Assembly (NCBI GenBank): GCA_025966435.1
Contig: JAICRQ010000008.1
Coordinates: 1-20,624 of the forward strand
DNA: 20,624 nt
DNA from: Anaerolineales bacterium
Lineage (GTDB): Bacteria; Chloroflexota; Anaerolineae; Anaerolineales; Villigracilaceae
Reading direction: 5' to 3'
Of this stretch, positions 5,232 through 20,624 are shown one piece after another. The notes beneath the pieces were generated by a model. It ran no database searches. It was not told the origin of the DNA and saw nothing but the letters and a program-made list of their open reading frames with translations. Position numbers and translations under genes: made by a program. Positions within the stretch are counted from its first letter, which is position 1. The number at the start of each line of letters is the position of its first letter.

Positions 5232-5253
5232 ACATTAACCTTATTCATCCGTT

Positions 5254-5375
5254 TCATTGCGAGGAGAGTCGAGATGCGTAGCATCGAGATCCCAACGAAG
5301 CAATCCCTATTCTTATGAGGAGACACTTGCACTTGGTGCCAGCGCAGGTGTTGCTTCGCTGTTGCTCGCAATGAC
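5254..5375. repeat. Intergenic fold-back element with TCATTGCGAG ends, copy 1
   Basis: TCATTGCGAG begins at 5254 and its complement CTCGCAATGA ends at 5374. Inside are CGAAGCAA (near 5296) and its complement TTGCTTCG (near 5351), so most of the 122 bp can fold back. It also contains GCCAGCGCAGGTGT (5338-5351), the reverse complement of a 14-mer matching the cores at 10829 and 14316 at 12 of 14 bases. It fills the manC-topA gap and has no reading frame. Confidence 0.75.
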
Positions 5376-5380
5376 ATAAT

Positions 5381-6484: not shown

Positions 6485-6486
6485 AT

Positions 6487-7602
6487 CTATCCTTTAAAAG
6501 TAGAGTAGTCGGATTGTACCTCACGCACGGCAATGTAATTCATGCCACCCACCTGACGCACCATTCCTTTCAGCTCCATCAGCGCCAATGTCGCTGAGAC
6601 TTTTTCAATGGGTAATTCTGTTTGATTCCGGATTTCATCCACATGCAAAGGTTCTTCACTTAACACATTCAGCAGCCGCGCTTCTGTTTCGTCAGACGGG
6701 ATGACCTTTCGTGCAGCTTTCTGCTCGCCCATGCGGGTCAGGTCCAGAGCCTGCATCAGATCGTTGACACTCAGCAAGGGCAGAGCACCGTTTTGAATCA
6801 GTTTATTCGTGCCTTTGCTTTGCGGCGCAAGGATACTTCCCGGCACCGCGAAAATCTCACGTCCCTGTTCCGCTGCAAACTCAGCAGTGATCAAGGCGCC
6901 GCTGGTCTCACCGGCTTCGATCACAACAACTGCCAGGGATAAACCCGAAATAATGCGGTTGCGCGGCGGGAAGTTCGAGGCGTCTGGTGGGGTACCCAGT
7001 GCATAGTCACTGACGATCGCGCCGCTCTCCATCATTTTTTCCGCCAGCCCGCGATGCTCCGGCGGATAAATCTTGTCCACGCCTGAGCCCAGCACACCGA
7101 TCGTTCGCCCGCCTGCCTTCAGCGCCGTTTGATGCGCCACAGCATCCACGCCGCGTGCCAGGCCGCTGATGACCGTAATTCCATTCGCTGCCAAATACGC
7201 CGCAAGCTCCTCCGTGATCTGCCTGCCATAGGCAGTCACTCGCCTGGTGCCCACGATGGCAACCGCAAAAAGGTCATCCGGCAGATAGTCGCCACGAATA
7301 TATAACACAGGTGGCGGCTGTTCAATCTCTTTCAAGCGTTGCGGATACGTTTCATCTTCCCAAGTGAGGATCTTGATCCCCTGCGCATCGATCTTCGTCC
7401 AAAGCTTCTCTAGATCGACTGCCTTGCGCGCCTGGACGATGCGCTCGATCACTTTCCCGCCCAAGCCTGCGCGCGCTAATTCGATTGGCGCAGCGTTCCA
7501 CGCAGCTTCAAGATCTCCAAAATGCCGGATCAGCGCCTGCATTCGCACCGCGCCGATACCTTTGATCAAGTTGAAACCGATCCAGTAGCGTTTGTCGATC
7601 AT
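6487..7602 (-). CDS. dprA: DNA processing protein DprA (371 aa)
   Basis: DprA binds single-stranded DNA entering during natural transformation and loads RecA. A helix-hairpin-helix-like region (LIKGIGAVRMQALIRHFG, 12-29) precedes the Rossmann domain. Its signatures are IVGTRRVTAYGR (117-127), SGLARGVDAVAHQTAL (146-161), GSGVDKIYPPEH (172-183), FPPRNRIISGLS (211-222) and TSGALITAEFAAEQGRE (233-249). A C-terminal winged helix (about 305-360) completes the long form of the family. I take the ATG at 7602 (MIDKRYWIGFNL) and not the in-frame ATG at 7659, because the family begins just before this tryptophan-containing helix and the extra 19 residues run through the palindrome at 7610 and into rimM. 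Presence of dprA alone does not prove competence; it also occurs in non-competent bacteria. Confidence 0.95.
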   Translation of the reverse strand: MIDKRYWIGFNLIKGIGAVRMQALIRHFGDLEAAWNAAPIELARAGLGGKVIERIVQARKAVDLEKLWTKIDAQGIKILTWEDETYPQRLKEIEQPPPVLYIRGDYLPDDLFAVAIVGTRRVTAYGRQITEELAAYLAANGITVISGLARGVDAVAHQTALKAGGRTIGVLGSGVDKIYPPEHRGLAEKMMESGAIVSDYALGTPPDASNFPPRNRIISGLSLAVVVIEAGETSGALITAEFAAEQGREIFAVPGSILAPQSKGTNKLIQNGALPLLSVNDLMQALDLTRMGEQKAARKVIPSDETEARLLNVLSEEPLHVDEIRNQTELPIEKVSATLALMELKGMVRQVGGMNYIAVREVQSDYSTFKG

Positions 7603-7609
7603 AAAATAC

Positions 7610-7638
7610 TGTAGGGCGGAATGACATTCCGCCTTACA
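7610..7638. repeat. TGTAGG-type intergenic palindrome, copy B
   Basis: TGTAGGGCGGAATG (7610-7623), one-base centre A, CATTCCGCCTTACA (7625-7638): arms match at 13 of 14. The element supplies the rimM stop codon (7634-7636) and occupies the rimM-dprA junction, leaving dprA with no obvious ribosome site. Confidence 0.75.
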
Positions 7639-8170
7639 ATCCTTCCAACAAGTGCACACGCATCAAACGGCGTGCAGGGTCCGTTTCCAGAACAACAGAG
7701 GGAATCGCAGGCAGGAGAATCTCTTTTCCTGATTCGTTCCTGACCACATATACATCGTTCGCGCCCGTCTCGATGATTTCCACCAGTTCGCCCAACTCAT
7801 TACCGCTCTCATCGATGACACGAAACCCAAAAAGCTCATGCTGATAAAGCCTGCCCTCCGGCAGATTCGGAGCATCTGTCGATTTGACGTAGACCCACTG
7901 GTTACGCAACCGTCCAGCATCTTCCGGGGTTTCGACGCCTTCAAATTTGACCAGCATTCCCTTTGCATGGGGACGCGCGTTGGAAAGCGTCATCGGCTTG
8001 TGCTCATCGCCGACGAAAAGTTTTCTCCCACTCTGAAAACGCTCGGGAAAGTCTGTATGCAAATCCATAATGATTTCCCCGCGCAAGCCATGCGCACGGC
8101 GCAAGAAACCCACTACCAAATAGACAGGCTCGCCGTCTGGCGAGCCTGAAGAATTCTTCGCATCAGCCAT
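7634..8170 (-). CDS. rimM: Ribosome maturation factor RimM (178 aa)
   Basis: RimM assists late 30S assembly around the 16S head and binds S19. The RimM N-domain starts at about residue 16 (YLVVGFLRRAHGLRGEI) after a short polar leader. The PRC-barrel half starts near LYQHELFGFRVID and contains GANDVYVVRNESGKEILLP, a typical RimM ending pattern (IPS VVLETD follows). The ATG at 8170 overlaps the khpA stop in a TAATG arrangement, so translation is likely coupled. Usually trmD and rplS follow rimM; here dprA does. The stop codon lies in a palindromic repeat. Confidence 0.95.
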   Translation of the reverse strand: MADAKNSSGSPDGEPVYLVVGFLRRAHGLRGEIIMDLHTDFPERFQSGRKLFVGDEHKPMTLSNARPHAKGMLVKFEGVETPEDAGRLRNQWVYVKSTDAPNLPEGRLYQHELFGFRVIDESGNELGELVEIIETGANDVYVVRNESGKEILLPAIPSVVLETDPARRLMRVHLLEGL

Positions 8171-8406
8171 TATTCTGGCTCAACCACGTCGAGGGTAGCC
8201 TGCTTGCCTTCGCGTTCGGCTGCCACCCGCAGAAGGGTCCGGATGGAGTTGGCGACCTTGCCGCCCTTTCCGATGACGCGTCCCATATCATCCTTGGAAA
8301 CGCTAAGCTCGATGCGGACGCGTGGCCCGCCTCCACTCTCACGCACTTGAACTTCATCCGGATGATCCACTAGTGATTTGGCGATGTATTCAATCAGATC
8401 TTTCAT
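8170..8406 (-). CDS. khpA: KH-domain RNA-binding protein KhpA (78 aa)
   Basis: A one-domain KH protein of the KhpA/YlqC family, normally found between rpsP and rimM as here. The RNA-binding GxxG loop is GKGG in the context MGRVIGKGGKVANSIRTLL, and the N-terminal LIEYIAKSLVDHPDEVQV matches the family. In Gram-positive bacteria KhpA pairs with KhpB (Jag) and affects cell elongation and RNA stability. No khpB is visible in this window. It is 108 bp downstream of rpsP, with a fold-back repeat filling the gap. Confidence 0.94.
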   Translation of the reverse strand: MKDLIEYIAKSLVDHPDEVQVRESGGGPRVRIELSVSKDDMGRVIGKGGKVANSIRTLLRVAAEREGKQATLDVVEPE

Positions 8407-8417
8407 AATTTTGTCTC

Positions 8418-8506
8418 GTCATCGCGAGGAAGGCTCAAGCCTGACGAAGCAATCTTGGATTTAATTAAAAGATTGTGTCGTCGCAATCAGCACTCCTCGC
8501 AATGAC
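8418..8506. repeat. Intergenic fold-back element with GTCAT-GCGAGGA ends, copy 2
   Basis: GTCATCGCGAGGA (from 8418) pairs with TCCTCGCAATGAC (ending 8506) with one mismatch. Inside are GACGAAGCAATCTT and, after an AT-rich centre, AAGATTGTGTCGTC, partly complementary to it. The 89-bp element fills the rpsP-khpA gap and would be transcribed with both genes, forming a long hairpin in the mRNA. Confidence 0.8.
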
Positions 8507-8514
8507 ATAAAAGA

Positions 8515-8856
8515 TTACTTGCCTGTCTTGACAGACGCGCCGCGTTTTGTTTCCGCTTCTTCGGCTTCTTTTAAGAGGGTTTCCATCGACTCACCCTTCT
8601 TGAAGCGTTCAAAGCGATCCAAAATGCCCGCGCTTTTGAAAACCTGCTCGACGGATTCGGTTGGCAAAGCGCCATTCTTCATCCAATGAAAAGCGCGGTC
8701 TTCCTTAACGTGAATTGTCGCAGGTTGTGTGCGAGGGTTATAGAAACCCAAAATTTCCAAAAAGCGACCATCGCGCGGTGACTCCTTATCGGCAGCCACA
8801 ATGCGGTACGTGGGTTGGCCCTTGAGACCAATACGACGTAAACGAATACGAACCAT
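8515..8856 (-). CDS. rpsP: 30S ribosomal protein S16 (113 aa)
   Basis: S16 is a primary 16S rRNA-binding protein of the 30S body. The start MVRIRLRRIGLKGQPTYRIV, then ADKESPRDGRFLEILGFYNP, is diagnostic. The family core ends near residue 85; the remaining Glu/Lys-rich tail (KEAEEAETKRGASVKTGK) is a common lineage-variable extension. AAGGAGT about 8 nt before the ATG at 8856 is a strong ribosome site. It opens the leftward rpsP-khpA-rimM run. Confidence 0.97.
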   Translation of the reverse strand: MVRIRLRRIGLKGQPTYRIVAADKESPRDGRFLEILGFYNPRTQPATIHVKEDRAFHWMKNGALPTESVEQVFKSAGILDRFERFKKGESMETLLKEAEEAETKRGASVKTGK

Positions 8857-8946
8857 TTAGCTTACTCCTTTTGATATTTTGCGTTTCAGGCAGGCAAGAG
8901 AGGGGTGCGTGAAAGGACGCCTTGCGGGCTGAAATCACAAGCAGAT

Positions 8947-8955
8947 ATTTTACCA
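8947..8955 (-). promoter_or_regulatory. Possible extended -10 promoter for rpsP
   Basis: On the minus strand TGGTAAAAT (8955-8947) is an extended -10 element (TGn plus TAAAAT). No good -35 is present, as is usual with TGn promoters. Start near 8940 would give a leader of about 84 nt before rpsP. Confidence 0.4.
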
Positions 8956-8960
8956 CGCCC

Positions 8961-10094
8961 TTACAAAGGAAGCGCAAAGGAAATCTTTGTACCCTTCCCC
9001 TCTTCGCTTTCCGCCCAGATTTTCCCGCGGTGAGCCTCCACCAGATACTTCGCAATGGATAAGCCTAATCCCATCCCGCCGGAATCGCTGGACTTATAAA
9101 ACCGGTCGAACACACGCGGCAACATGGGAGATGCAATCCCCGGACCGCTGTCTTTCACCGAAATCGTTACATTTCTTTCCTCCCCGAGAGCTGCTTCCGC
9201 TAATTGAATTTTGATCTCCCCGCCGCGTGGTGTGTAGCGTAATGCATTGGAAAATAGATTGGTCAACACTTCACGGATGCGTTGCGGGTCAATAGTTACT
9301 TCTTCCACGTTCTCTAATGCCATCTCAAGATGGATCTCTTTTTCCTTTATTTGCGCTTGAAGGCTAGAAGTTGCATCGTGAATTAATCCTGCTAAATTGG
9401 TTGGCTCGCGCTTCAAACGCAATGCGCCACTTTCTGCCAGGGCGAGTGTTCGCAAGTCATCCACGAGGCGCGAAAGGATTTGCGTCTCTTCGATAATAGA
9501 CTTTAATCGTGCCTCATCTGTGGGATATACACCGTCCAGCATCCCTTCCACGTTTCCCTGAATCACCGTAATAGGTGTTCGTAATTCGTGAGATATATCC
9601 GCCAGCATGTTGCGCCGCTGTTGATCGCTCACCTGTAAACGTTCCGCCATCGAATTAAAGCTTCTCATCAGCGAGTAAACTTCCGGGGGTCCCTTTTCCT
9701 GGACACGCACGGAATAATCTCCATTTGCCACTCTCTCGGAGGCGCGGAACAACTCATCCAGAGGGGTGAACATACGGCGCAGACTGCGCGCTCCCCATCC
9801 CACCGCGAACACCAATAAAATAAAACTCAAAAAGGCAATGGGCAAAATATAAACCGTTCGATCAAAAAGTGCATCGCCCGGGACATCAAAAGCAGAAGCG
9901 AAAAGAAGCCTCAAAATTCCAAGCAATCCCACAAAGGCAAGAAAAGCGAATCCGAAGAAGAAACATCCCATTCGGCGAAAGAACGGGTTGCGCCTGCCGA
10001 CGCGCCGCCAGGCTTCACGTGTCGGGGGCCATTCTTCGTTCTCGGGCCACCATGGCGGACGCTGACGATGAGAGAAGTGATGATGAGGATTCAT
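8961..10094 (-). CDS. Intramembrane-type sensor histidine kinase (377 aa)
   Basis: Autophosphorylates on H169 (DISHELRTPI) and should pass the phosphate to the response regulator encoded 22 bp upstream. The N-terminus is rich in His and Trp (MNPHHHFSHRQRPPWWP). Helices span about 44-67 and 80-103 and leave only about a dozen residues outside the membrane, so there is no periplasmic sensor domain. HAMP (104-155), HisKA (156-225) and HATPase_c follow, with the N box NLFSNALRY, G1 DSGPGI and G2 GMGLGLSI. The catalytic region resembles the BaeS/CpxA-like class. The signal is unknown. A perfect palindrome (10103-10116) covers the only SD-like AGGAT before its ATG. Confidence 0.93.
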   Translation of the reverse strand: MNPHHHFSHRQRPPWWPENEEWPPTREAWRRVGRRNPFFRRMGCFFFGFAFLAFVGLLGILRLLFASAFDVPGDALFDRTVYILPIAFLSFILLVFAVGWGARSLRRMFTPLDELFRASERVANGDYSVRVQEKGPPEVYSLMRSFNSMAERLQVSDQQRRNMLADISHELRTPITVIQGNVEGMLDGVYPTDEARLKSIIEETQILSRLVDDLRTLALAESGALRLKREPTNLAGLIHDATSSLQAQIKEKEIHLEMALENVEEVTIDPQRIREVLTNLFSNALRYTPRGGEIKIQLAEAALGEERNVTISVKDSGPGIASPMLPRVFDRFYKSSDSGGMGLGLSIAKYLVEAHRGKIWAESEEGKGTKISFALPL

Positions 10095-10102
10095 AATCAG
10101 GC

Positions 10103-10116
10103 AATCCTATAGGATT
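10103..10116. promoter_or_regulatory. 14-bp perfect palindrome over the kinase ribosome site
   Basis: AATCCTATAGGATT fills most of the 22-nt gap between the regulator stop and the kinase ATG. On the mRNA its right arm contains AGGAT, the only Shine-Dalgarno-like sequence, about 10 nt from the ATG. The AATCC/GGATT stem could lower kinase translation relative to the regulator. Confidence 0.4.
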
Positions 10117-10803
10117 TTATTTATCAGCAAATTTATATCCAACACCATACACAGTCAAAATATATTGCGGCTCACTGGCTTTCACTTCGATCTTACGGCG
10201 GATGTTCTTGACGTGTGCATCGATGGCACGTTCATACGACTCAAATGCCACACCATGGATCGCGTCCAGCAATTGGACGCGGGTGAATACTCGCCCGGGC
10301 TGGCGCGCTAAAGCAGCTAACAACTCAAATTCCGTAGGCGTAAGTTCCTCGATCCTGCGGTTTTCCACCGTGGCACGCAGACGCGGGACATCAAGCGTCA
10401 AATCTGCCACGCGAATCATTTCGGCATTCGCCGATAAAGCATTCTCGATCCGCCGGAAGACAACCCGGACGCGCGCCACCAATTCTTTAGGGCTGAATGG
10501 CTTGGTCATGTAATCGTCTGCGCCGAGTTCGAGCCCGATCAATTTGTCTGTTTCCTCCGCCCGCGCTGTCAGCATAATGATCGGCGCGTTGGAAGCTTTG
10601 CGGAACTCGCGGGTAAAGTCCAGCCCATCGAGCTGAGGCAGGCCCAGATCCAGAATGACCATATCCGGTTTCTCGGTCTTCCCCAGAGATAACGCCTTCC
10701 TCCCGTCATACGCGACAAGAACACCAAACCCGGCGCGCTCCAGATAATCGCGCACGAGTTGGGTGATCTTGGGTTCGTCGTCCACAACGAGGATGGTTTT
10801 CAT
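10117..10803 (-). CDS. OmpR/PhoB-family response regulator (228 aa)
   Basis: The receiver domain (about 1-120) has the acidic pair D8-D9, phosphoacceptor D52 (VILDLGLP), the switch Thr in IIMLTARAEE and the conserved Lys in YMTKPFSP. A winged-helix DNA-binding domain follows (about 125-228), with ELTPTEFELLAALARQPG, DAHVKNIRRKIE and the family-typical end YILTVYGVGYKF. I start at the ATG at 10803 (MKTILVVDDE), the normal receiver start. The longer frame to 10986 would run through the repeat at 10811-10870 and into the preceding gene. No clear ribosome site precedes this ATG. It probably controls the operon's own promoter through the repeats at 11340-11357. Confidence 0.95.
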   Translation of the reverse strand: MKTILVVDDEPKITQLVRDYLERAGFGVLVAYDGRKALSLGKTEKPDMVILDLGLPQLDGLDFTREFRKASNAPIIMLTARAEETDKLIGLELGADDYMTKPFSPKELVARVRVVFRRIENALSANAEMIRVADLTLDVPRLRATVENRRIEELTPTEFELLAALARQPGRVFTRVQLLDAIHGVAFESYERAIDAHVKNIRRKIEVKASEPQYILTVYGVGYKFADK

Positions 10804-10810
10804 AATATTT

Positions 10811-10870
10811 TGTAGGTCGGACACCGAACGCACACCTGTCCTGGCGGACGGCGCCAGTGTCCAATCTACA
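10811..10870. repeat. TGTAGG-type intergenic palindrome, copy C, with inner hairpin core
   Basis: Outer arms TGTAGGTCGGACAC (10811-10824) and GTGTCCAATCTACA (10857-10870) pair at 12 of 14. Inside, CTGGCG and CGCCAG (10841-10857) form a second hairpin around GACGG. Bases 10829-10857 match 14316-14344 at 27 of 29. The element sits immediately upstream of the response regulator, inside the operon. Confidence 0.8.
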
Positions 10871-10879
10871 TTATACGTT

Positions 10880-11293
10880 TTATTCTTTCTTCTCTGCCGG
10901 CGGCTCCCCATGTGTACGCTTGTGCCATTCCTCCAACATCGATGGGACACCATTTTCCCAGTGTCTTCCCGACGGACCCTGTCCATGATGGTGTCCCCAT
11001 CCCCAGCGTGGACCCCAGAAGAGGAAGCGGAACGCTCGGAGGGCGAGAAAGAAGAGAAATAGCAGAATCAGGAAGCCAAAGAACCCAAATCCAAACCCGA
11101 ATGGATGGTGCAGGTGCATACCATAGCCGTAATATGGATATGGAGCGGGCACCACTTCACCGGAGGGTGCCTCGACGGTGATCGGCGATCCCTGTGCAAC
11201 ACCGGCTCGAAATGCAAAGAAGGCGATGCCCGCGATCGCGGCGATCAACACCAACGCCGAGACGATCCGTAAACCAGTATTATTTCCGTTCAT
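10880..11293 (-). CDS. Small His/aromatic-rich membrane protein heading the two-component operon (137 aa)
   Basis: I know no named family. The first helix is about 10-29 (VSALVLIAAIAGIAFFAF). A linker with PYPYYGYGMHLHHP follows, then a Gly/Phe-rich second helix (about 66-92, FGFGFFGFLILLFLFFLAL). The tail is rich in Trp and His (WGWGHHHGQG, then HW and HKRTHGE) and ends in a charged EKKE. AAGGAGT about 6 nt before the ATG is a strong ribosome site. It is the first gene after the promoter and the repeats at 11326-11357, and precedes the regulator and the kinase on the same strand. A sensing or accessory role for the kinase, perhaps involving metal, is inference from position and composition. 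Confidence 0.75.
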   Translation of the reverse strand: MNGNNTGLRIVSALVLIAAIAGIAFFAFRAGVAQGSPITVEAPSGEVVPAPYPYYGYGMHLHHPFGFGFGFFGFLILLFLFFLALRAFRFLFWGPRWGWGHHHGQGPSGRHWENGVPSMLEEWHKRTHGEPPAEKKE

Positions 11294-11325
11294 GTTTTAC
11301 TCCTTTTGTTTGAACTCATGTCTGG

Positions 11326-11357
11326 AGTATAGGACCCGGTTGTGAATTGATTGTGAA
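11326..11357 (-). promoter_or_regulatory. Two-component operon promoter with tandem TTCACAA regulator half-sites
   Basis: On the minus strand TTCACAA occurs at 11357-11351 and again at 11346-11340, start to start 11 bp apart (TTCACA-N5-TTCACA). TATACT (11331-11326) lies 8 bp beyond the second copy. There is no good -35; the repeats cover that region, the geometry of PhoB/PhoP-class activation. OmpR/PhoB regulators bind direct repeats with about 11-bp spacing, so autoregulation by the 10117-10803 product is likely. Confidence 0.65.
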
Positions 11358-11387
11358 GAGAGGATGGAGAGAAAAATTGAATGGATA

Positions 11388-11416
11388 TTGACGCAGTAGA
11401 ATATGCGTTCTAGAAT
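11388..11416 (+). promoter_or_regulatory. Near-consensus promoter for the 211-aa gene; predicts a leaderless mRNA
   Basis: TTGACG (11388-11393), 17-bp spacer, TAGAAT (11411-11416). Only 7 nt separate the -10 from the ATG at 11424, so transcription should start at or beside that ATG. Confidence 0.75.
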
Positions 11417-11423
11417 CAGACGC

Positions 11424-12059
11424 ATGAATCTCAACAAATTAAAACAGGCAGAAAAAGCATTTCTCCGTCGCTATCCCGGTGGCTTCGATAACCCGGGGCT
11501 TGTTGCCACGCGAGTCAGAAAACATAAGCCAGACCAAATGATTGCTCTCACCCGCGAAAGCTTTTCCAGGGAAAATTTCAATCGTCCTGATCTGATTGTT
11601 CAGAATATGATAAAGGTCGTGAGCCGCTCATCGGTCATTTCTGTGTTCGAAAAACCAAGATTTCGTGATTTCGCCAATGGACTTTCTCATCAAGAACGGG
11701 AGTTCCTGAGTAGTGGGCTGGAACAGGTATTACATGGGAATGAGCAGACGGGATTCGAAATGATTCTGGATTTGCTTAAGAGTGAAAAGTTGGCAAAATG
11801 GTCACTGATCACTGTCTGTCAGACTTATTTTCACCCGCTGAGAGATGTCTTCATCAAGCCCACCACCGTCAAAGGTGTCATTGCATATTTTGAGCTGGAA
11901 AACCTGCACTACAGGCCAACCCCATCCTGGGCATTCTATGAGGCATACCGATCCGTCTTCCATGAAATGAAATCAAAAGTGGATTCGTCACTTTCCCCTA
12001 CCAACCCGGCATTTTCAGGTTTCCTTTGGATGACTGTACGAGGAGAGCTACTGTTATAA
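11424..12059 (+). CDS. Conserved-looking soluble protein of unknown function (211 aa)
   Basis: The protein begins MNLNKLKQAEKAFLRRYPGG and contains VSRSSVISVFEKPRFRDF, a pattern I associate with a widespread uncharacterised bacterial family; I cannot name a function. It is helical and basic at the N-terminus, with no signal peptide, transmembrane helix or recognisable catalytic motif. I choose the ATG at 11424, not the in-frame ATG at 11403, because 11403 lies inside the promoter upstream of the predicted transcription start. No Shine-Dalgarno precedes 11424, in keeping with a leaderless message. It is divergent from the two-component operon (130 bp between starts). A terminator at 12200-12226 follows 140 bp after the stop. 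Confidence 0.8.
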   Translation: MNLNKLKQAEKAFLRRYPGGFDNPGLVATRVRKHKPDQMIALTRESFSRENFNRPDLIVQNMIKVVSRSSVISVFEKPRFRDFANGLSHQEREFLSSGLEQVLHGNEQTGFEMILDLLKSEKLAKWSLITVCQTYFHPLRDVFIKPTTVKGVIAYFELENLHYRPTPSWAFYEAYRSVFHEMKSKVDSSLSPTNPAFSGFLWMTVRGELLL

Positions 12060-12434
12060 ATTATGAAAGAATACATTCTTGCCCTACGGGAACAATGCAG
12101 GCGCTGAGAAGAATTTCTTGCAAGCTCAAGCGGTTGCTCTAAGTCAGCGTAAAAACGCAATTGACAAACCTTTTTGAATAGAAAGATATCAGCACTCTTG
12201 ACCTTGACGTTCCAAGGTCTTTTTTGTTTTCGGTCGCATTTCTGAGGACTCTGTGCATTCCCAAACTGCTCACTGCTGTTCTGAACTCCAAAATCCACCT
12301 TTCGATTGCGAAAAGTAGATGTATAGCAGTTGAAAGCTGCAAAGTGAAAATGCCGGATTAAACTAGGCTTAGAATTTTTTAGGGCTGAGAACAGCGTCGG
12401 TCCAAATCATATAACATATTACAAAGGAGTAATC
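12060..12434. other. Gene-poor gap of 375 bp
   Basis: The left part (12060-12199) is the 3' untranslated stretch of the 211-aa gene and contains only very short frames, such as a 14-codon frame from 12063. A terminator occupies 12200-12226. The right part (12227-12434) is the upstream region of the 137-aa membrane protein gene: it is AT-rich near the gene, with TAGAAT (12370) and TATAAC (12410) as possible -10 elements but no -35 at proper spacing. I see no RNA gene or repeat. Confidence 0.6.
12200..12226 (+). terminator. Intrinsic terminator downstream of the 211-aa gene
   Basis: GACCTTG (12200-12206), loop ACGTTC, CAAGGTC (12213-12219), then TTTTTTG. A 7-bp perfect stem followed by six Ts. 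Confidence 0.8.
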
Positions 12435-12848
12435 ATGGAATACAGTACTACACAACAAAGAATCGCCGCGATCGGTCATCAGCCAGCTTTGAAAAAATCC
12501 ACTTTTGTTATCGCTCTCGCAATTTTTGGTGTTTTTAGCGTTCTGGCTGGAATGATAAGCTTAGCCACATGGATCACTCTGTCCTCAGGTGCAGCTATGC
12601 CCGGCCTTGCCGATGCCATGTTAATCGACGCAGTCTATGAGTTTATCCTGGGTGCGTTGATTTTTGCCAGCTCAAGGGCATTCGCAAAAGGCAAGATGCT
12701 GTCAGTGTGGATTTACGCTGCCAGCATCCTTTTGGATAGCCTCTACAATATCGTAACAGGATATCCGTTGAATTATGTCTTCGTGGGCTTTGGCTTGCTC
12801 CTGATCTGGCAAATTTTGAGATTCAGGGGCAGGCTGGATCTTGCATAA
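12435..12848 (+). CDS. Four-helix membrane protein of unknown function (137 aa)
   Basis: Four hydrophobic segments at about 23-47, 61-81, 88-108 and 110-130 account for nearly the whole chain, after a short polar N-terminus (MEYSTTQQRIAAIGHQPALKK). The C-terminus is basic then short (RFRGRLDLA). The pattern is that of small inner-membrane proteins of the DoxX/DUF size class, but no motif ties it to one. AAAGGAGT 4 nt before the ATG at 12435 is a strong ribosome site. It is followed at once by the symmetric terminator shared with ffh. Confidence 0.8.
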   Translation: MEYSTTQQRIAAIGHQPALKKSTFVIALAIFGVFSVLAGMISLATWITLSSGAAMPGLADAMLIDAVYEFILGALIFASSRAFAKGKMLSVWIYAASILLDSLYNIVTGYPLNYVFVGFGLLLIWQILRFRGRLDLA

Positions 12849-12865
12849 TTTCGAGTGAACACCTC

Positions 12866-12906
12866 AACAAAAACAGGTCACGCTTGAAGCGTGACCTGTT
12901 TTTGTT
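12866..12906. terminator. Two-way terminator between the convergent membrane protein and ffh genes
   Basis: Arms of 20 bp (12866-12885 and 12887-12906) are perfectly complementary around a single central G at 12886, in practice a TTGAA loop on a CAGGTCACGC stem. A-run and T-run flanks make it work in both directions; its right end includes the first bases of the ffh stop codon. Confidence 0.92.
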
Positions 12907-14227
12907 ATCCAAACAACCGTCCCAAGCCCTTTCCCCCGGTTTTTTGCATCATCTTCATTAGTTTCTGCGTTTCACGGAACTGTTTGATCAGGCGGTTCAC
13001 GTCCTGCACTTCCATGCCGGCACCTGCGGCAATGCGCCGACGGCGGGAGGCGTTCAAGATCTCCGGGTCGCGACGTTCCTTTAACGTCATAGAGTTGATG
13101 ATCGCTTCGGATTGCTTGAACGTTTTCTCGATGTCTTTTGGGTCCACCTGACGCGCCGCCTGCCCGAACTGCCCGGGCAGCATATCCATGATCTGCGCCA
13201 GTGGTCCCATCTTTTTCATCTGCTTCATCTGGTCGAGCCAGTCTTCGAGCGTGAAGTGGCCTTTCATCATACGCTCAGCAGTCTTTTGCGCGGTCTGCTG
13301 GTCGAAGGCGGCTTCGGCTTTTTCGATCAAACCGATCATGTCACCCATCCCCAAAATGCGCGAAGACAAACGCCCAGGGTCGAATGCCTCGAGGGCATCC
13401 AACTTTTCACCTGTACCGATGAACTTGATTGGTACACCCGTCACAGAGCGGATTGAGATCGCCGCGCCGCCGCGCGAGTCACCGTCCATTTTAGTCATCA
13501 TCAAGCCTGTGATGGACACATTATCCCGAAATCCCTGGGCGATATTTAACGCTTCCTGACCGATCATGGAATCGACCACGAGCAGGATCTCCACCGGTGG
13601 GACTTTGTCGACAATGGACTTTAGTTCGTTCATCAGCTCTGAGTCCAGTTGCGATCGCCCGGCAGTGTCCACGATCATAATTCCATATCCGCCCTTTTCG
13701 GCTTTGTCAAAGGAACGCTGGACAAGCTCGGGCGGCGTAATGGTTAGGTCTGCCTCGACCGGGACATCAATCCGCTCGCCGAGCTGCTGCAGCTGCGTTA
13801 CCGCCGCGGGACGATAGGGATCGCCTGCGACTAGCATGACCCGCTCCCCTTTCGAGCGGAGCATACGCGCCAGTTTTCCTGCCCCAGTTGTCTTTCCCGA
13901 GCCTTGCAAACCGACCATCATGATGACATGCGGCTTCGGTCCGCGCAGGTTTAAGGGTGCCGGCTCACCCAAAGTCTGGATCAATTCATCGTTGACGATC
14001 TTGATGATCTGCTGCCCTGGGTTCAATGCCTTTGAGACTTCAGCGCCAATGGCACGCTCGCGGACGCGGCCAATGAAGGACTTGACCACGCTAAAATGCA
14101 CGTCCGCTTCGAGTAAAGCGAGGCGCACTTCTCGCATCGCCACGTCTACATCGGCTTCGGAGAGCTTCCCGCGCCGGCGGAGTTGGTCAAAAACTTGATT
14201 AAGTCGATTAGTGAGATTTTCAAACAT
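12905..14227 (-). CDS. ffh: Signal recognition particle GTPase Ffh (440 aa)
   Basis: Ffh binds 4.5S/SRP RNA and hydrophobic signal sequences and docks with FtsY for co-translational membrane insertion. The N-domain bundle (1-90) leads into the G-domain: P-loop GLQGSGKTT (106-114), DTAGRSQLD, TKMDGDSRGG and the closing-loop GTGEK. The M-domain (from about 295) is Met-rich (MKQMKKMGP) and carries the RNA-binding signature SRRRRIAAGAG. Length is normal for the family, with a short GKGLGRLFG end. The promoter at 14403-14431 lies beyond the repeat at 14242-14381, so the mRNA should carry that repeat in a leader of roughly 170 nt. Only a weak ribosome site precedes the ATG. Confidence 0.98.
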   Translation of the reverse strand: MFENLTNRLNQVFDQLRRRGKLSEADVDVAMREVRLALLEADVHFSVVKSFIGRVRERAIGAEVSKALNPGQQIIKIVNDELIQTLGEPAPLNLRGPKPHVIMMVGLQGSGKTTGAGKLARMLRSKGERVMLVAGDPYRPAAVTQLQQLGERIDVPVEADLTITPPELVQRSFDKAEKGGYGIMIVDTAGRSQLDSELMNELKSIVDKVPPVEILLVVDSMIGQEALNIAQGFRDNVSITGLMMTKMDGDSRGGAAISIRSVTGVPIKFIGTGEKLDALEAFDPGRLSSRILGMGDMIGLIEKAEAAFDQQTAQKTAERMMKGHFTLEDWLDQMKQMKKMGPLAQIMDMLPGQFGQAARQVDPKDIEKTFKQSEAIINSMTLKERRDPEILNASRRRRIAAGAGMEVQDVNRLIKQFRETQKLMKMMQKTGGKGLGRLFG

Positions 14228-14498: not shown

Positions 14499-14571
14499 GC
14501 CGAGATAGCTCAGTTGGTAGAGCACGCGACTGAAAATCGCGGTGTCCCCAGTTCGATCCTGGGTCTCGGCA
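14499..14571 (+). tRNA. tRNA-Phe (GAA)
   Basis: 73 nt fold into a standard cloverleaf: acceptor GCCGAGA/TCTCGGC, D-arm GCTC/GAGC, anticodon stem CGCGA/TCGCG with loop CTGAAAA, T-arm CCCAG/CTGGG with TTCGATC, discriminator A. CCA is not encoded and must be added by the CCA-adding enzyme. Confidence 0.97.
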
Positions 14572-14599
14572 CTCTCGGTCAGAAGCAACGACCAGAACT

Positions 14600-14671
14600 G
14601 CGGGCGTAGTACAGTGGTAGTACGTCTCCTTGCCAAGGAGAAGGTCGTGGGTTCGAATCCCATCGCCCGCT
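14600..14671 (+). tRNA. tRNA-Gly (GCC)
   Basis: 72 nt: acceptor GCGGGCG/CGCCCGC, D-arm GTAC/GTAC, anticodon stem TCTCC/GGAGA with loop TTGCCAA, T-arm GTGGG/CCCAT with TTCGAAT (one G-T pair), discriminator T. No encoded CCA. It lies 28 nt after tRNA-Phe in the same transcript. Confidence 0.97.
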
Positions 14672-14688
14672 CAGCAATTTTAACAAAT

Positions 14689-14760
14689 GGCGTCGTGGCC
14701 AAGTGGTAAGGCAAGGGTCTGCAAAACCCTCATTCAGGGGTTCGAATCCCCTCGACGCCT
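14689..14760 (+). tRNA. tRNA-Cys (GCA)
   Basis: 72 nt: acceptor GGCGTCG/CGACGCC, D-arm GCC/GGC, anticodon stem AGGGT/ACCCT with loop CTGCAAA, T-arm AGGGG/CCCCT with TTCGAAT, discriminator T (U73 is a cysteine identity base). No encoded CCA. Last gene of the operon, 34 nt before the terminator. Confidence 0.97.
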
Positions 14761-14794
14761 CTCAACAATTTACAACGGTGTTCGACAAAGAACT

Positions 14795-14927: not shown

Positions 14928-17900
14928 ATGAAAATCCTGTACGTTGAAGATGAGACTGCACACGTCATGCTGACAGAAAGGGTTCTGGAAGAGAATCTAC
15001 ATGACGGATTCAAGTTAATTCACGCAGAAACAATCGAAGCCGCCCTCAGGCTTCTCGAAACGGAACCGGACATTGATGTTGTCCTGACGGATCTACGCCT
15101 GCCCGATGGAACCGGCCTGGATCTGCTTCTAAAAGTTCGGGAGCGTACTTCGCCTCCGGCCGTCGTTTTGGTCACAGGACAAGGGGATCAGGAAGTGGCA
15201 GTTACAGCGTTGAAGTCTGGCGCTGCAGACTACCTTGTCAAACAGAGCGATTATTTGCACCGCCTGCCGGTTGTCATCAGCAATGCAATTGCTCAAAATC
15301 GTTACCTGCGCGAGCAGCAAGCTTTATATCGGGCAGAGGTCCGTTACCAGTCTCTTGTCGAGCAGATCACAGCAGTTGTATTTTTGGACCAGACCAATGA
15401 GGAGCAAACGACCATCTATATGAGTCCCCGCATCGAGGAACTGACCGGCTACACGGCAGAAGAGTGGTGCGTTGATCGAAATTTGTGGACATCCTCTATT
15501 CATCCGGATGATCGCGAACGTATCGTCCGGAAGGATACAGAAACGAACCAAAGCGGGGAGCGTTTCCTTGAAGAATATCGCTTGATCAGGCGTGATGGCA
15601 CCATTGTATGGGTCAAGGAAGATACAAACCTTATCCGCGATCAGGAGGGACAACCGCTCTACTGGCAGGGTATTCTGCTGGATATCACAAAGGAAAAAGA
15701 GAATGAAGCTGCCCTCCAGAGACAGCTTGAGGAACTGGCAGTCCTTCATTCTGCCTCTCTGGCTGCGTCCAATGCACTGGATATCGACAAGTTAATCGAG
15801 CAGGTTACGAATATTATCGGGGATGCACTCTATCCAGATAATTTCGGAATCTTATTGTTAGACAGAACTAAAAACACACTCAAGCCACATCGCTCTTATC
15901 GAGGTACAACCGTAGAAAATCTTTCTGCGGACTTTCCGATTACACAGGGCATTACTGGAAAAGCTGCCCAGACAGGAAAGTCGATTCGAACGGGGGATGT
16001 AAAAAAGGAAGCGTCATATATGGAGGTCACAGGGGGAGTGCAGTCTGAGCTTTGTGTGCCAATCATTTCGCATGGACGGGTCACCGGTGTAATTAATAGT
16101 GAGAGCAAGAAGCAAAATGCATATTCACAGAAGGATGAGCGTCTTCTTACGACCATTGCCCACACGCTTGCAACTGCAACAGATAAATTAAGATCCTTCG
16201 AGGAAGCCCGGCAACGCGCTACAGAACTCGAAGCTCTTTACCAAGCCTCCCGCTCGCTGGCTCTAAGCCTTGAACCGGAAATCATCGGGAAAAACCTGGT
16301 CACAACCATGGATGAGATGCTGGGATATGAGTTTGCAGCCGTGTACTTGTTAGAGGATCAGACCCAGACCCTTGCTCTCCTGGCCGTTACGCAAGAAGCA
16401 CAAGGTCCAGAAAACTTCGAGAGCAACATGTCTTCCTTTTTCAGCCAGAAGATTCCCTTGAAGGTTGGCATTCTCGGCTGGGTGGCAAAACATGGACAAT
16501 CTGTTCGCGTTGATGACGTTACCAAGAACACACGCTATCTTGGTGTTCTCAAGAACATCAAATCCGAACTCTGCGTTCCATTGGTTGCACGCGGCAAAGT
16601 GATTGGAGTCCTCAACATCGAGTCCCCGCAGCTCAATGCATACTCAGAAAGAGATGAGAACCTGCTAACTGCACTCGCTAACTCCGCTGCAATTGCCCTT
16701 GAAAATGCCCGTCTTTACAAATCGGAGCTGGCTCGGCGAGAGCAAGCTGAAACCCTGCGGACAGCGACCGCTGCCCTATCCACCGCACTGGAGATGGATA
16801 CTCTCTATGAGATCATTCTCGACTCAGTCTCGAAACTCGTGCCGTACGACCATGCTTCGATCGAGATTATAAAACAAGGATGTCTGGAACTCGTGGCGGA
16901 GCATGATCGCCTAAAAGGGCAGCATATTGAACGTAAGGATGCCTGGAACTCAAAGCAATGGGAGGATTGGAAGGACCTATGGAAGGGTCAATACCGTCCC
17001 CTCATCTTATCGGATGCTCAACTCGAGGACGACCCAAATAAGATTACAAATCACCAATCGATTCGCAGTTGGATGCGTATACCTATGGTTGCCGGGGAGA
17101 AGGTATTTGGGCTGATCAATCTGGAAAGCAAACGGACAAATTTATTCACAGAAGAACATGCAGGTATTCTTCAGACGTTTGCCAACCAGGCAGGTATTGC
17201 GATTGAGAAGGCACAGCTTTATCAAGATGCGTTGCGAGCCGCGGACCGCCGCGCCGTGTTGCATCGCATCAGCCAGGATATTGTCCGTTTCACACAGGAT
17301 TCGGAACAAATCTATACAGCCATTCATGAGGCAGCGCAGAAATTGATGCGCTGCGATGTATTTATTATCTCGCTTCACGATGAGAAAACGGATCAAAATA
17401 TTTCTGTTTACACCGTGGAAGCGGGAAGTCGGTATCCACCTGAGGGGGTGCCAGCAGAGCAAGGACTTACTGCATTTGTCACCAACAAAGGAAAAAGTAT
17501 TATTCTGAGAAATGAGGCGGAAATCGAGGAAAGAGGGGTGCTTCATTTCGGCTCACCCACTCATGTTCAGTCTGTCGTGGCGGTTCCATTGCGCGTTAAC
17601 GATCAAGTGATCGGGATGATCTCAGTGCAGAGTTACCAAGCTTACGCTTATGATGTGGAAGAGCAATCCCTACTCGAAATGCTGGCTACACATGCAGCAA
17701 CTGCTATCGAAAACAACCGTCTATTTGAACTGGAACAAAAAAGACGCCAGGAAGCAGAAAATTTGCGGCAAGCGGCAGCCGTCATATCATCCACACTGGA
17801 TACGGACAATGTCGTGGAACAGATCCTCATGGCTCTTAAGCAAGTGATCCCCTACGACAATGCCAGTGTCTTCTTCCATGAAGGAGATCATCTGCGGATC

Positions 17901-20624
17901 GCCATGGCGCATGGATACCCTCATGCCAGAGAATTGACGAATTCCACTTATCCAGCTAATAACGAGCTGTTTCATCTCGTTCGAGAGAGCCGTCGTCCTA
18001 TCTTCTTAGAAGATGCACAAAAAGACCTGCGCTTCAAAAATTGGGGAGGAGCGCATACCGTTCATGGCTGGATGGCAATTCCTCTCATTGCAAGGGGTGG
18101 AGTGATTGGGTTTATCACGTTAGATAGTTACGAACCCAGTGTATACAATGAGTCTATTATTGAAACCGCTATGGCGTTTGCAAATCAGGCGGCTGCGGGA
18201 ATTGATAATGCCCGGCTTTTCCAGGAACAAAGCCGGCGTTCGAAAATCATCGAGGCATTGGCAGATATTGCCAATGATATCGCCACGACCCGCGAGGCCC
18301 TGCCCGCGTTGGATCAGATCACACAGCGTGCCCTTGACCTGCTCCATGCGAATCATGTTGCCATCTATCTGCTTCAAGACGACGGTATTACGTTGAGGAC
18401 AGTGGCCGCGCATGGGACGTATCGGAACGAATTGCTGGCACATACACGGAAAGTTGGTGAGGGGATTACAGGAAATGTGTTCCTTAAGGGAAAACCGGAA
18501 ATTGTTAACGACACCCGTGAAGATCCACGCAGAGTCGTTATCCCGGGTACACCTGAAGGAGCAAACAGGATCGAGAGCTTAATGTCTTCCCCGCTGAGCC
18601 TGCGTGGGAGGACAATCGGGGTGATAAACGCCTGGAGACTTAAGCAAGATGGCTTGTTCAACGAGACTGAATTGAACTTCCTTGTCGGAATCGCACACCA
18701 GGTATCGATCTGTATCGAATCAGGCAGGCTGTTTCAGGAGACAAACCGTCAGGCGCAGGAGGCGGCCGCGATTGCCGAGGTCGGTCGAGATATTTCAGCC
18801 ACCCTTCAGCTCGATACGGTGCTCGAGCGAATCGCCTCATATGCCATGAATTTGCTCCAGGCGGAGACCAGCGCCGTGTATCTGGCAAACGCAGCAACTC
18901 CAACGCTTCAGGCAATTGCGGCGCTCGGCGTCGATTCGGAAGAAATCAAAAGTGATCCCATCGTCCTTGGTACAGGAATCATCGGAAATATCGCCCTGCA
19001 AAGCGTTGGAGAAATTGTAAATAATACTGCCAATCATCCACGTGGAATCACCGTACGAGGCACAGAGATAAACCTGCTTGAGCATCTTATGGCAGTGCCG
19101 ATTCTTCTAAAAGATAAGCATACAGGTTTACTCGCTGTCTGGCGCACCGGGTCGGGCGCGGAGTTCGCGCCGCGGGAACTGGAGTTCCTTACGAGCCTTG
19201 CAAGGCAAACGGCGGTTGCAATTGAGAACGCGCGATTATTTAAGGAAGTACAGCGTCGCTTGCAAGAACTGGAAACCATCAATCGGATTTCTACATCCCT
19301 GCGGATAACGCAGTCATTCGATGAGATGCTGCCCATCCTCCTGAATGAAACGCTGCAACTTGCGGGCACCTCTCATGGCTCCATCTGGCTCTACGACCAT
19401 ACCTCCGACAGGCTCGTCCAGCGTGTGGCCAGCGGTATGGAAACCAGCCTCAGACAAAAATCATTAAGTCCGATGGAAGGGATTGTCGGATATACCTTTA
19501 GAACCGGAAGGACGTATCGCTCATCCGAGTTGAAAAATGACTCATTGCTCTTCGAGGCTGAGCGGGATAGCATGATCCCAGGGTATGGTGCCATTTGTAT
19601 ACCGATCCAATCCACAGCAGGTCCGGTAGGTGTGCTGGTTGTGGTTATGGAAATGGAACGACAAATCACAGAGGAGATCAATCTTCTATCTATACTCGCC
19701 GAAATCGCAGGTAATTCCATCCATCGCGCCCAGCTATACGACCAAAGTCAGAGACAGGTGCGGCGATTGACATCGCTGCGGGATATCGACTCTGCGATTG
19801 CATCCTCCTTCGACTTGCGCCTGACGTTGAACATCTTAATGGATCAGACAGTCAGCCACCTCAATATCGATGCAGTAAATATTGGGCTCTATCATCCAGA
19901 CTTGCAAAGCCTCACATACCTGAATGGCGTTGGATTCACAATCCCCTCTCCTTCGCGTCCACAGGTCCGCATGGGAGAAGGGCTTGCCGGACAAGTGCTC
20001 ATTAAACAGCAAACCTGCCATATCACGAACCTTCAAAATGCTCCAGAAACAACAAACGAAGTACTTGTCAAGCGAGAGGGGTTCGTGACCTATATAGGCA
20101 TCCCACTGATTGTCAAGGGGCAAATCAAGGGAGTCTTTGAAATATTTCATCGCTCCCCTCTTTCACCGACCCCCGATTGGATGGAGTTTTTGCATACTCT
20201 GGCGGGTCAGGCGGCTATCGCAATAGACAGCGCCCAGCTGTTCGAAAACTTACAGCGCTCGAATCAGGAACTGATCCAGGCGTATGACACGACACTGGAA
20301 GGCTGGGCACGCGCGCTGGAACTTCGCGACCGAGAAACAGAGGGTCATACACGGCGCGTCACAGAGACGACCATGCGGCTGGCGAGATACATTGGCGTCA
20401 ACGACACGGAAATGGTAAACATTTACCGTGGCGTACTGCTCCACGATATTGGCAAAATGGGTGTTCCAGATCACATCTTGAAGAAGGAGGGCAAGCTTAC
20501 CGAGGAGGAGTGGGGGGAGATGCGCCGGCATCCTGTATATGCTTACAATCTTCTTTCCCCCATTACATTCCTGCGGGGCGTACTGGATATTCCCTACTGT
20601 CATCATGAGCGCTGGGATGGAAAA
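14928..20624 (+). CDS. Giant REC-PAS-GAF(x9)-HD-GYP signalling protein, 3' end cut by the window (at least 1899 aa)
   Basis: I read this frame codon by codon to the window edge with no stop. The receiver domain (1-120) has E7-D8-E9, phosphoacceptor D55, T83 and K105. A PAS domain with PAC-type end follows (about 138-258). Nine GAF domains then lie at about 285-435, 449-595, 623-763, 791-932, 958-1098, 1121-1268, 1294-1438, 1463-1604 and 1628-1772. Most end in a helix like AIENARLF that leads into a linker. The HD-GYP domain starts near 1785, with H1807, the HD pair H1839-D1840, K1843, H1868 and HHERWDGK at 1892-1899; the next codons should give GYP. This class hydrolyses c-di-GMP. No transmembrane helix, histidine-kinase domain or GGDEF is present. 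Start ATG has only a weak ribosome site. Ligands of the GAF domains are unknown. Confidence 0.93.
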   Translation, partial: MKILYVEDETAHVMLTERVLEENLHDGFKLIHAETIEAALRLLETEPDIDVVLTDLRLPDGTGLDLLLKVRERTSPPAVVLVTGQGDQEVAVTALKSGAADYLVKQSDYLHRLPVVISNAIAQNRYLREQQALYRAEVRYQSLVEQITAVVFLDQTNEEQTTIYMSPRIEELTGYTAEEWCVDRNLWTSSIHPDDRERIVRKDTETNQSGERFLEEYRLIRRDGTIVWVKEDTNLIRDQEGQPLYWQGILLDITKEKENEAALQRQLEELAVLHSASLAASNALDIDKLIEQVTNIIGDALYPDNFGILLLDRTKNTLKPHRSYRGTTVENLSADFPITQGITGKAAQTGKSIRTGDVKKEASYMEVTGGVQSELCVPIISHGRVTGVINSESKKQNAYSQKDERLLTTIAHTLATATDKLRSFEEARQRATELEALYQASRSLALSLEPEIIGKNLVTTMDEMLGYEFAAVYLLEDQTQTLALLAVTQEAQGPENFESNMSSFFSQKIPLKVGILGWVAKHGQSVRVDDVTKNTRYLGVLKNIKSELCVPLVARGKVIGVLNIESPQLNAYSERDENLLTALANSAAIALENARLYKSELARREQAETLRTATAALSTALEMDTLYEIILDSVSKLVPYDHASIEIIKQGCLELVAEHDRLKGQHIERKDAWNSKQWEDWKDLWKGQYRPLILSDAQLEDDPNKITNHQSIRSWMRIPMVAGEKVFGLINLESKRTNLFTEEHAGILQTFANQAGIAIEKAQLYQDALRAADRRAVLHRISQDIVRFTQDSEQIYTAIHEAAQKLMRCDVFIISLHDEKTDQNISVYTVEAGSRYPPEGVPAEQGLTAFVTNKGKSIILRNEAEIEERGVLHFGSPTHVQSVVAVPLRVNDQVIGMISVQSYQAYAYDVEEQSLLEMLATHAATAIENNRLFELEQKRRQEAENLRQAAAVISSTLDTDNVVEQILMALKQVIPYDNASVFFHEGDHLRIAMAHGYPHARELTNSTYPANNELFHLVRESRRPIFLEDAQKDLRFKNWGGAHTVHGWMAIPLIARGGVIGFITLDSYEPSVYNESIIETAMAFANQAAAGIDNARLFQEQSRRSKIIEALADIANDIATTREALPALDQITQRALDLLHANHVAIYLLQDDGITLRTVAAHGTYRNELLAHTRKVGEGITGNVFLKGKPEIVNDTREDPRRVVIPGTPEGANRIESLMSSPLSLRGRTIGVINAWRLKQDGLFNETELNFLVGIAHQVSICIESGRLFQETNRQAQEAAAIAEVGRDISATLQLDTVLERIASYAMNLLQAETSAVYLANAATPTLQAIAALGVDSEEIKSDPIVLGTGIIGNIALQSVGEIVNNTANHPRGITVRGTEINLLEHLMAVPILLKDKHTGLLAVWRTGSGAEFAPRELEFLTSLARQTAVAIENARLFKEVQRRLQELETINRISTSLRITQSFDEMLPILLNETLQLAGTSHGSIWLYDHTSDRLVQRVASGMETSLRQKSLSPMEGIVGYTFRTGRTYRSSELKNDSLLFEAERDSMIPGYGAICIPIQSTAGPVGVLVVVMEMERQITEEINLLSILAEIAGNSIHRAQLYDQSQRQVRRLTSLRDIDSAIASSFDLRLTLNILMDQTVSHLNIDAVNIGLYHPDLQSLTYLNGVGFTIPSPSRPQVRMGEGLAGQVLIKQQTCHITNLQNAPETTNEVLVKREGFVTYIGIPLIVKGQIKGVFEIFHRSPLSPTPDWMEFLHTLAGQAAIAIDSAQLFENLQRSNQELIQAYDTTLEGWARALELRDRETEGHTRRVTETTMRLARYIGVNDTEMVNIYRGVLLHDIGKMGVPDHILKKEGKLTEEEWGEMRRHPVYAYNLLSPITFLRGVLDIPYCHHERWDGK

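Follow-up and report, generated by a model that had tools for sequence, protein, structure and literature searches.

A giant gene at a conserved locus

The window (the whole stretch of DNA analysed, 20,624 nucleotides) ends inside a giant gene, which is preceded by three tRNA genes and an ordinary housekeeping neighbourhood:

2922-14227, minus strand: ffh (TIGR00959) and, further on, rimM, dprA, a nucleotidyltransferase and topoisomerase I (Pfam)
8961-10986, minus strand: HAMP histidine kinase and OmpR-type response regulator pair (Pfam), with ffh between this pair and the giant gene
14499..14761, plus strand: tRNA-Phe, tRNA-Gly and tRNA-Cys, the usual upstream neighbour of the giant gene
14928..20624, plus strand: the giant gene, with its 5′ end complete and its 3′ end lost at the contig edge; 1899 codons visible

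As the original prediction had it, the reading frame spans at least 1899 codons: it opens with the ATG at 14928 and meets no stop before the contig end at 20624. Its nearest relative among the best 120 of 1519 protein matches, P0002 (1973 aa), is 97% identical to it across all 1899 residues and finishes the HD-GYP domain, with GYP, within 74 further residues. Thus the GYP tripeptide and stop that were expected past the contig end are both complete in P0002, but the missing 3′ tail was not found elsewhere in the window's own assembly, where the best match was only 57% identical and lay in other proteins; because the tail was not located, GYP is unseen for this genome. A hydropathy scan speaks against a membrane protein. 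The highest 19-residue mean (1.87, at residue 1556) falls inside GAF8, and for that reason we keep the label "soluble" that the chain was first given.

We fetched the locus around one strong match each from all 17 other same-genus genomes searched and from three (G018, G024 and G036) of 19 same-family genomes belonging to other genera. The tRNA-Phe/Gly/Cys trio lies upstream in 17 of these 20 loci; among the others, L043 has tRNA-Cys at the contig edge, L062 has no upstream sequence, and L060, from another genus, lacks the trio. Downstream, 17 of the 18 loci with sequence there carry a convergent gene of a single cluster, whose tested member is tyrS (TIGR00234). The lone exception with enough sequence, G011, does have the tRNA trio, and G002, G004 and the window are too short downstream to show tyrS. 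Upstream, ffh or a homologue was found in 9 of 21 loci, the window included. Given this conserved locus, the differing GAF numbers described below belong to orthologues at one place and not to paralogues.

No conserved kinase gene was seen beside the locus in the fetched stretches. The kinase and response regulator at 8961-10986 lie near the giant gene, but related genes occur in only 3 and 2, respectively, of the 21 loci, window included, and many of the fetched stretches are too short to reach the equivalent of that pair. In 12 loci, a small gene (167 aa at L047:2397-2900) follows tyrS; it is HNH-like, with an IscB match below the cut-off.

Domain organization

Pfam recognizes on the frame one receiver (Response_reg, 3-108), one PAS domain (PAS_3, 163-249), nine GAF domains and the beginning of an HD-GYP domain, whose HD_5 match at 1795-1899 breaks off at position 112 of the 170 in the model. 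Three GAF models each give nine stretches, and GAF_2 has an overall E of 1.3e-145. The modules are arranged as follows:

14934..15251, plus strand: receiver domain, residues 3-108, with D55, T83 and K105 (Response_reg E=1.1e-18)
15342..15686, plus strand: PAS domain, residues 139-253 (PAS_3 163-249, E=1.4e-22; PAS 139-253)
15711..16205, plus strand: GAF1 with its leading helix
16206..16730, plus strand: GAF2
16731..17231, plus strand: GAF3, with the lowest conservation (mean identity 0.60 over 52 proteins)
17232..17738, plus strand: GAF4
17739..18230, plus strand: GAF5
18231..18743, plus strand: GAF6, first half of the GAF6-GAF7 pair (GAF7 is next in 120/120 copies)
18744..19250, plus strand: GAF7, second half of that pair
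19251..19748, plus strand: GAF8, in the C-terminal block (GAF8-GAF9 adjacent in 140/141 sequences)
19749..20252, plus strand: GAF9, in the C-terminal block (mean identity 0.89; GAF9 plus HD-GYP of P0002 matches PmGH, 4mcw)
20253..20624, plus strand: HD-GYP, first part, with E1803, H1807, H1839, D1840, H1868, H1892 and H1893; GYP and the last 74 residues lie past the contig

This layout agrees with the one first read from the DNA: a complete receiver with D55, a PAS domain, nine GAF segments, and an HD-GYP domain with HD at 1839-1840 and an intact HHERWDGK at the end of the frame. Fewer than seven GAFs had been named as fatal to that reading, and the HMM search counts nine. In the receiver, D55 is accompanied by E7, D8, T83 and K105, and all five are invariant in 126 of 126 aligned receivers (those of the 141 sequences introduced below that have a recognised receiver start).

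The HD-GYP output and its c-di-GMP setting

The window carries the HD pair (H1839/D1840) and the HHERWDG motif, and HD_5 scores above the Pfam cut-off. When P0002 was compared by sequence with solved structures, the best match was PmGH (4mcw; E=1.3e-52), over residues 1611-1966, which comprise GAF9 and HD-GYP; the window's own incomplete HD part matches PmGH with E=1.6e-20. For PmGH, the roles of the ligand and catalytic residues are described in PMC4159591, with E185 as the eighth ligand of a trinuclear subgroup. Seven of the eight metal ligands are in the window, and the eighth is visible in relatives. The expectation that GYP and metal ligands would follow downstream thus held for the relatives in full, and for the window in its seven ligands. 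The position of E185 is E in 139 of 140 aligned sequences (P0108 stops before it), within a family triplet E-T-E, as against the E/D-T-G given in PMC4159591. The GYP loop, I294, D305 and D308 are present in 137 of 140, the window, P0108 and L059 stopping before them. Wherever the sequence extends, the PmGH ligand and catalytic residues are invariant.

The window's own assembly, which is 80% complete, gave 14 GGDEF, 8 HD_5 and 3 PilZ matches, and no EAL match. HD-GYP is thus the sole type of c-di-GMP phosphodiesterase found in this 80% complete assembly, beside the 14 GGDEF matches. The remaining seven HD_5 frames of this genome measure 296-864 aa, in line with the 350-800 aa originally quoted as usual for HD-GYP proteins.

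A family with steady ends and a changing middle

The family table consists of the best 120 of 1519 protein matches, and the domain HMMs were built from 53 aligned proteins. With the window included, 52 of 121 proteins have exactly the order receiver-PAS-GAF1 to 9-HD-GYP; in the others, domains are missing, repeated or reordered, and some are fragments. The source names among these best 120 include Anaerolineales and Chloroflexota, as well as one Bacteroidota and one Syntrophothermus; every one carries the MAG label. Of 201 genomes sampled from the phylum, 15, the window's own among them, have matches to GAF8-GAF9-HD with E no greater than 1e-100, and 11 of the 15 belong to the same family. A scan of genome contigs yielded only two distant loci, which were left out of the analysis.

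The 20 fetched relatives are 1084-2153 aa long (in G002 and G036 a contig end truncates the gene). All 20 have GAF1 and GAF8-GAF9-HD-GYP, 18 have the receiver, and 18 have a PAS domain of this type. The number of GAFs at this one locus ranges from 3 to 10 in the relatives: Pfam alone found 3, 10 and 5 in the three tested, and G009, G012 and G013 have three GAFs only, with no middle GAF at all.

Across 141 sequences (139 distinct genes, as L043 is P0093 and L044 is P0120) we count 25 distinct GAF orders, a figure that takes in fragments. Both GAF1 and the C-terminal block are present in 137, and four lack one or the other. In those 137, the GAFs between GAF1 and GAF8 number 0 (3 sequences), 1 (1), 2 (6), 3 (1), 4 (25), 5 (31), 6 (64) or 7 (6). 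Two adjacencies stand out: GAF7 directly follows GAF6 in 120 of 120 cases, and GAF8 adjoins GAF9 in 140 of 141, although such adjacencies, like the joints described below, are not independent events, because the 141 sequences are mutually related and were chosen by similarity. Judged from these sequences, the chain is not a one-off but belongs to a family with a variable number of GAFs. We found no published description of this multi-GAF HD-GYP family in the non-subscription literature searched.

Ten types of GAF module

Cut at the leading helix, the nine GAFs of the window are 15-34% identical in pairs, the closest being GAF6 and GAF7 (34%), followed by GAF1 and GAF2 (32%). A recent tandem duplication of GAFs was ruled out by these low identities and by the lack of any repeated 14-mer in the gene. 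Over the 52 full-length proteins (window included), mean identity is 0.83 for the receiver, 0.73 for PAS and 0.90 for the HD part, and for GAF1 to GAF9 it is 0.74, 0.73, 0.60, 0.74, 0.71, 0.83, 0.81, 0.73 and 0.89.

When 350 GAF copies taken from 48 of the 141 sequences were placed in a tree, classes 1-4 and 6-9 came out as one clade apiece, containing all their members and no others (support 0.986-1.0); some clustering is expected, because the classes had been set by HMM ahead of the tree. What was first taken as class 5 divides, 21 copies against 13, and the 13 form a clade of their own (support 0.994), which makes ten GAF types in all. As class 5 is therefore not one lineage, GAF orders written with a "5" mix two types.

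Adding 118 GAFs from other frames left the picture nearly unchanged (L037, a duplicate of L059, was omitted). Classes 2 and 3 remain clean, classes 4 and 5 lose two copies each, and classes 1, 6, 7, 8, 9 and 10 gain one to three outside copies each, 15 in total. Eight of these 15 are from genes fetched twice (L036 and L039), and three are from L032, a relative with the same end modules. The remaining four come from other proteins: class 1 takes in copies from L031, L035 and L103, and class 7 one from L094. GAF modules may therefore have been exchanged with other proteins. Phylogenetically, then, the ten types persist when deleted, doubled or moved, each keeping its identity while its neighbours change.

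The chain was originally read as a many-input integrator. That reading is supported in part: none of the nine GAFs is a copy of another, their lineages persist in relatives, and the output domain retains the ligand and catalytic residues of PmGH.

A standard joint between GAFs

As the joint distance, we took the number of residues from an anchor in the last helix of one GAF to an anchor in the first helix of the GAF after it; either anchor corresponds to a single alignment column across all nine GAFs. Domain hits scoring less than 25 bits were dropped, as were one pair separated by over 25 residues and 12 joints with a missing anchor. In the window, every one of the eight GAF-GAF joints has a distance of 16; across the family, 983 of 988 joints share this value, and the other five are at 27. 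Within GAF bodies, distances vary from 139 to 158 across the family. The five 27-residue joints, longer by 11 residues (about three helical turns), are all of the GAF1-GAF3 type and belong to the five relatives with the order 1-3-4-8-9 (L055-L059, from G017, G011, G015, G010 and G002). Joints of types absent from the window number 145, in 20 types, and 140 of them are 16. The spacing from GAF9 to HD-GYP is constant in 140 of 140 relatives; its anchor was hand-placed to give 16 in the window, so that only the constancy is a finding, and this joint is excluded from the 988. With it, 1123 of 1128 joints are at 16, in 29 joint types. A similar result came from a generic GAF model made with 75 GAFs of the family: 994 of 1000 at 16, five at 27 and one at 141, pairs with a missing anchor being skipped.

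As a control, we applied the generic model to 16 stretches of the window's own genome that encode other GAF proteins. Of 34 measured pairs (14 more had a missing anchor), 19 had the 16-residue distance and seven had 23; a distance of 20 occurred twice, 9, 27 and 34 occurred once each, and three pairs exceeded 100. A wider set of 37 frames that includes some family members contributes one further joint, at 30. Since 19 of the 34 control pairs are at 16, this is the most frequent joint among the genome's GAF arrays and is not private to the giant-gene family, in which it is strictest. The short departures from 16 (-7, +4, +7, +11, +14 and +18) all fall within 40 degrees of a whole turn at 100 degrees per residue. 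One frame of the own genome (L093 on C91; 1616 aa, six GAF_2 matches) is another array in which the joint is constant but of a different length: all five of its measured joints are 23, that is, 16+7. Two other contigs of this genome (C401 and C591; L099 and L101) each carry several separate GAF-bearing frames side by side.

Predicted structure of the C-terminal half

A structure model was made of residues 1102-1899 as a monomer (mean pLDDT 75, pTM 0.40). It places one unbroken helix at each of the three GAF joints covered (145-190, 314-359 and 482-525 in model numbering), with pLDDT at the joints of 65-68 for GAF6-GAF7 and 75-86 for GAF7-GAF8, dropping to 46-59 for GAF8-GAF9; the helix into HD-GYP is broken and poorly modelled. 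With moderate confidence, then, these GAF joints are predicted to be continuous helices of 44-46 residues. The best fold matches were PDE2A, the cyanobacterial cyclase GAFs, PmGH, PDE5A and PDE6, with entries 3ibj, 1ykd, 1mc0 and 3lfv among them.

A proposed mechanism and its alternatives

We think it likely that the protein is a soluble, dimeric c-di-GMP phosphodiesterase of the HD-GYP type, set by a rod of stacked, interchangeable sensor modules. Two chains would lie side by side, with their joint helices forming a parallel coiled-coil spine. Phosphorylation of the receiver, or binding of a ligand to a GAF, would shift the register or rotation of these helices, and the spine would pass the shift on to the HD-GYP pair. 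The modules would be interchangeable because the joints have one length and one helical register: inserting, removing or moving a module would leave the register intact, so that the inputs could differ between species while the output stays the same. GAF6-GAF7 and GAF8-GAF9-HD-GYP would act as units.

On balance, we also favour an evolutionary extension of this mechanism, in which the gene between the tRNA trio and tyrS is an evolving plug-in array. About ten GAF types would have been added, lost and moved between fixed ends, enabled by a standard joint (16, or 16 plus whole helical turns) along a single coiled-coil spine that drives the HD-GYP pair, and most GAF arrays of the own genome would follow the same joint rule.

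The alternative that survives best, although we consider it unlikely, is that most middle GAFs are spacers or dimerisation blocks that set the length of the rod (perhaps its reach to a partner) and whose number drifts with little effect. The range of 3 to 10 GAFs at one locus, the weak conservation of GAF3 (0.60), the three relatives with no middle GAF (G009, G012 and G013) and the lack of an established ligand for the GAFs would all suit such a role. It fits less well with GAF6 and GAF7 being about as conserved as the receiver (0.83 and 0.81 vs 0.83) and adjoining in 120 of 120 sequences, or with the survival of module identity through moves, since pure spacers would need no identity.

It is less probable still that the substrate of the HD-GYP domain is a different cyclic dinucleotide, such as 3′3′-cGAMP, or that the domain serves mainly as a protein-binding output. 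The second-best solved relative of P0002 is indeed the 3′3′-cGAMP-specific phosphodiesterase 3 (5z7c; E=9.7e-41), but the best match, with its GAF domain included, is a c-di-GMP enzyme whose metal and catalytic residues are retained, and the own genome has 14 GGDEF and 3 PilZ matches. Finally, the idea that the long array is an assembly artefact, prompted by a draft genome in 635 contigs and a contig that stops within the gene, can be rejected as extremely improbable: no frameshift or assembly join, which had been named as a risk to the original prediction, was found in the GAF array, the gene contains no N and no repeated 14-, 16-, 18- or 20-mer, 52 of 121 proteins (window included) share the domain order, and P0002 is 97% identical throughout.

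The size of the gene by itself would be a curiosity. What makes the family worth following up is the natural series at one locus together with the joint rule, which bear on the general question of how a receptor can gain and lose sensors without losing control of its enzyme. The orthologues, which range from 3 to 10 GAFs but keep near-constant ends and a single joint spacing, could serve directly as constructs, and the joint rule allows a prediction of which artificial sensor chains ought to function.

Comparison with known systems

Tandem-GAF phosphodiesterases and cyclases have two GAFs. Like the giant chain, PDE2A, PDE5A, PDE6 and the cyanobacterial adenylyl cyclase (1ykd) place tandem GAFs before a cyclic-nucleotide enzyme; unlike it, they have a different catalytic domain, and the giant-gene family, known from sequence, has 3 to 10 GAFs.

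PmGH of Persephonella marina (4mcw) is alike in that GAF9 plus HD-GYP of P0002 aligns with it, with metal ligands and catalytic residues retained, and PMC4159591 describes a long helix of about 42 residues joining its GAF to its HD-GYP domain. It differs in having one GAF, whereas the giant chain has nine GAFs plus a receiver and a PAS domain, and an activity that is predicted.

The S-helix (Anantharaman et al. 2006; PMC1592074) is a helical segment between sensory domains and before HD-GYP, and the giant chain likewise has predicted helical segments between its sensor modules. The same paper reports that some coiled coils between GAF domains are antiparallel, which counts against a parallel spine.

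A parallel for the joint rule comes from Rec-GGDEF and phytochrome-GGDEF proteins (DgcR and PadC), whose linker lengths, according to PMC8041772 and PMC9587094, are restricted by register, mostly in steps of 7, with a further -4 linker class in PadCs. There, each protein has one joint, and several length classes exist; the giant chain, by contrast, has a single spacing at its eight GAF-GAF joints, and this spacing is retained in shuffled orders.
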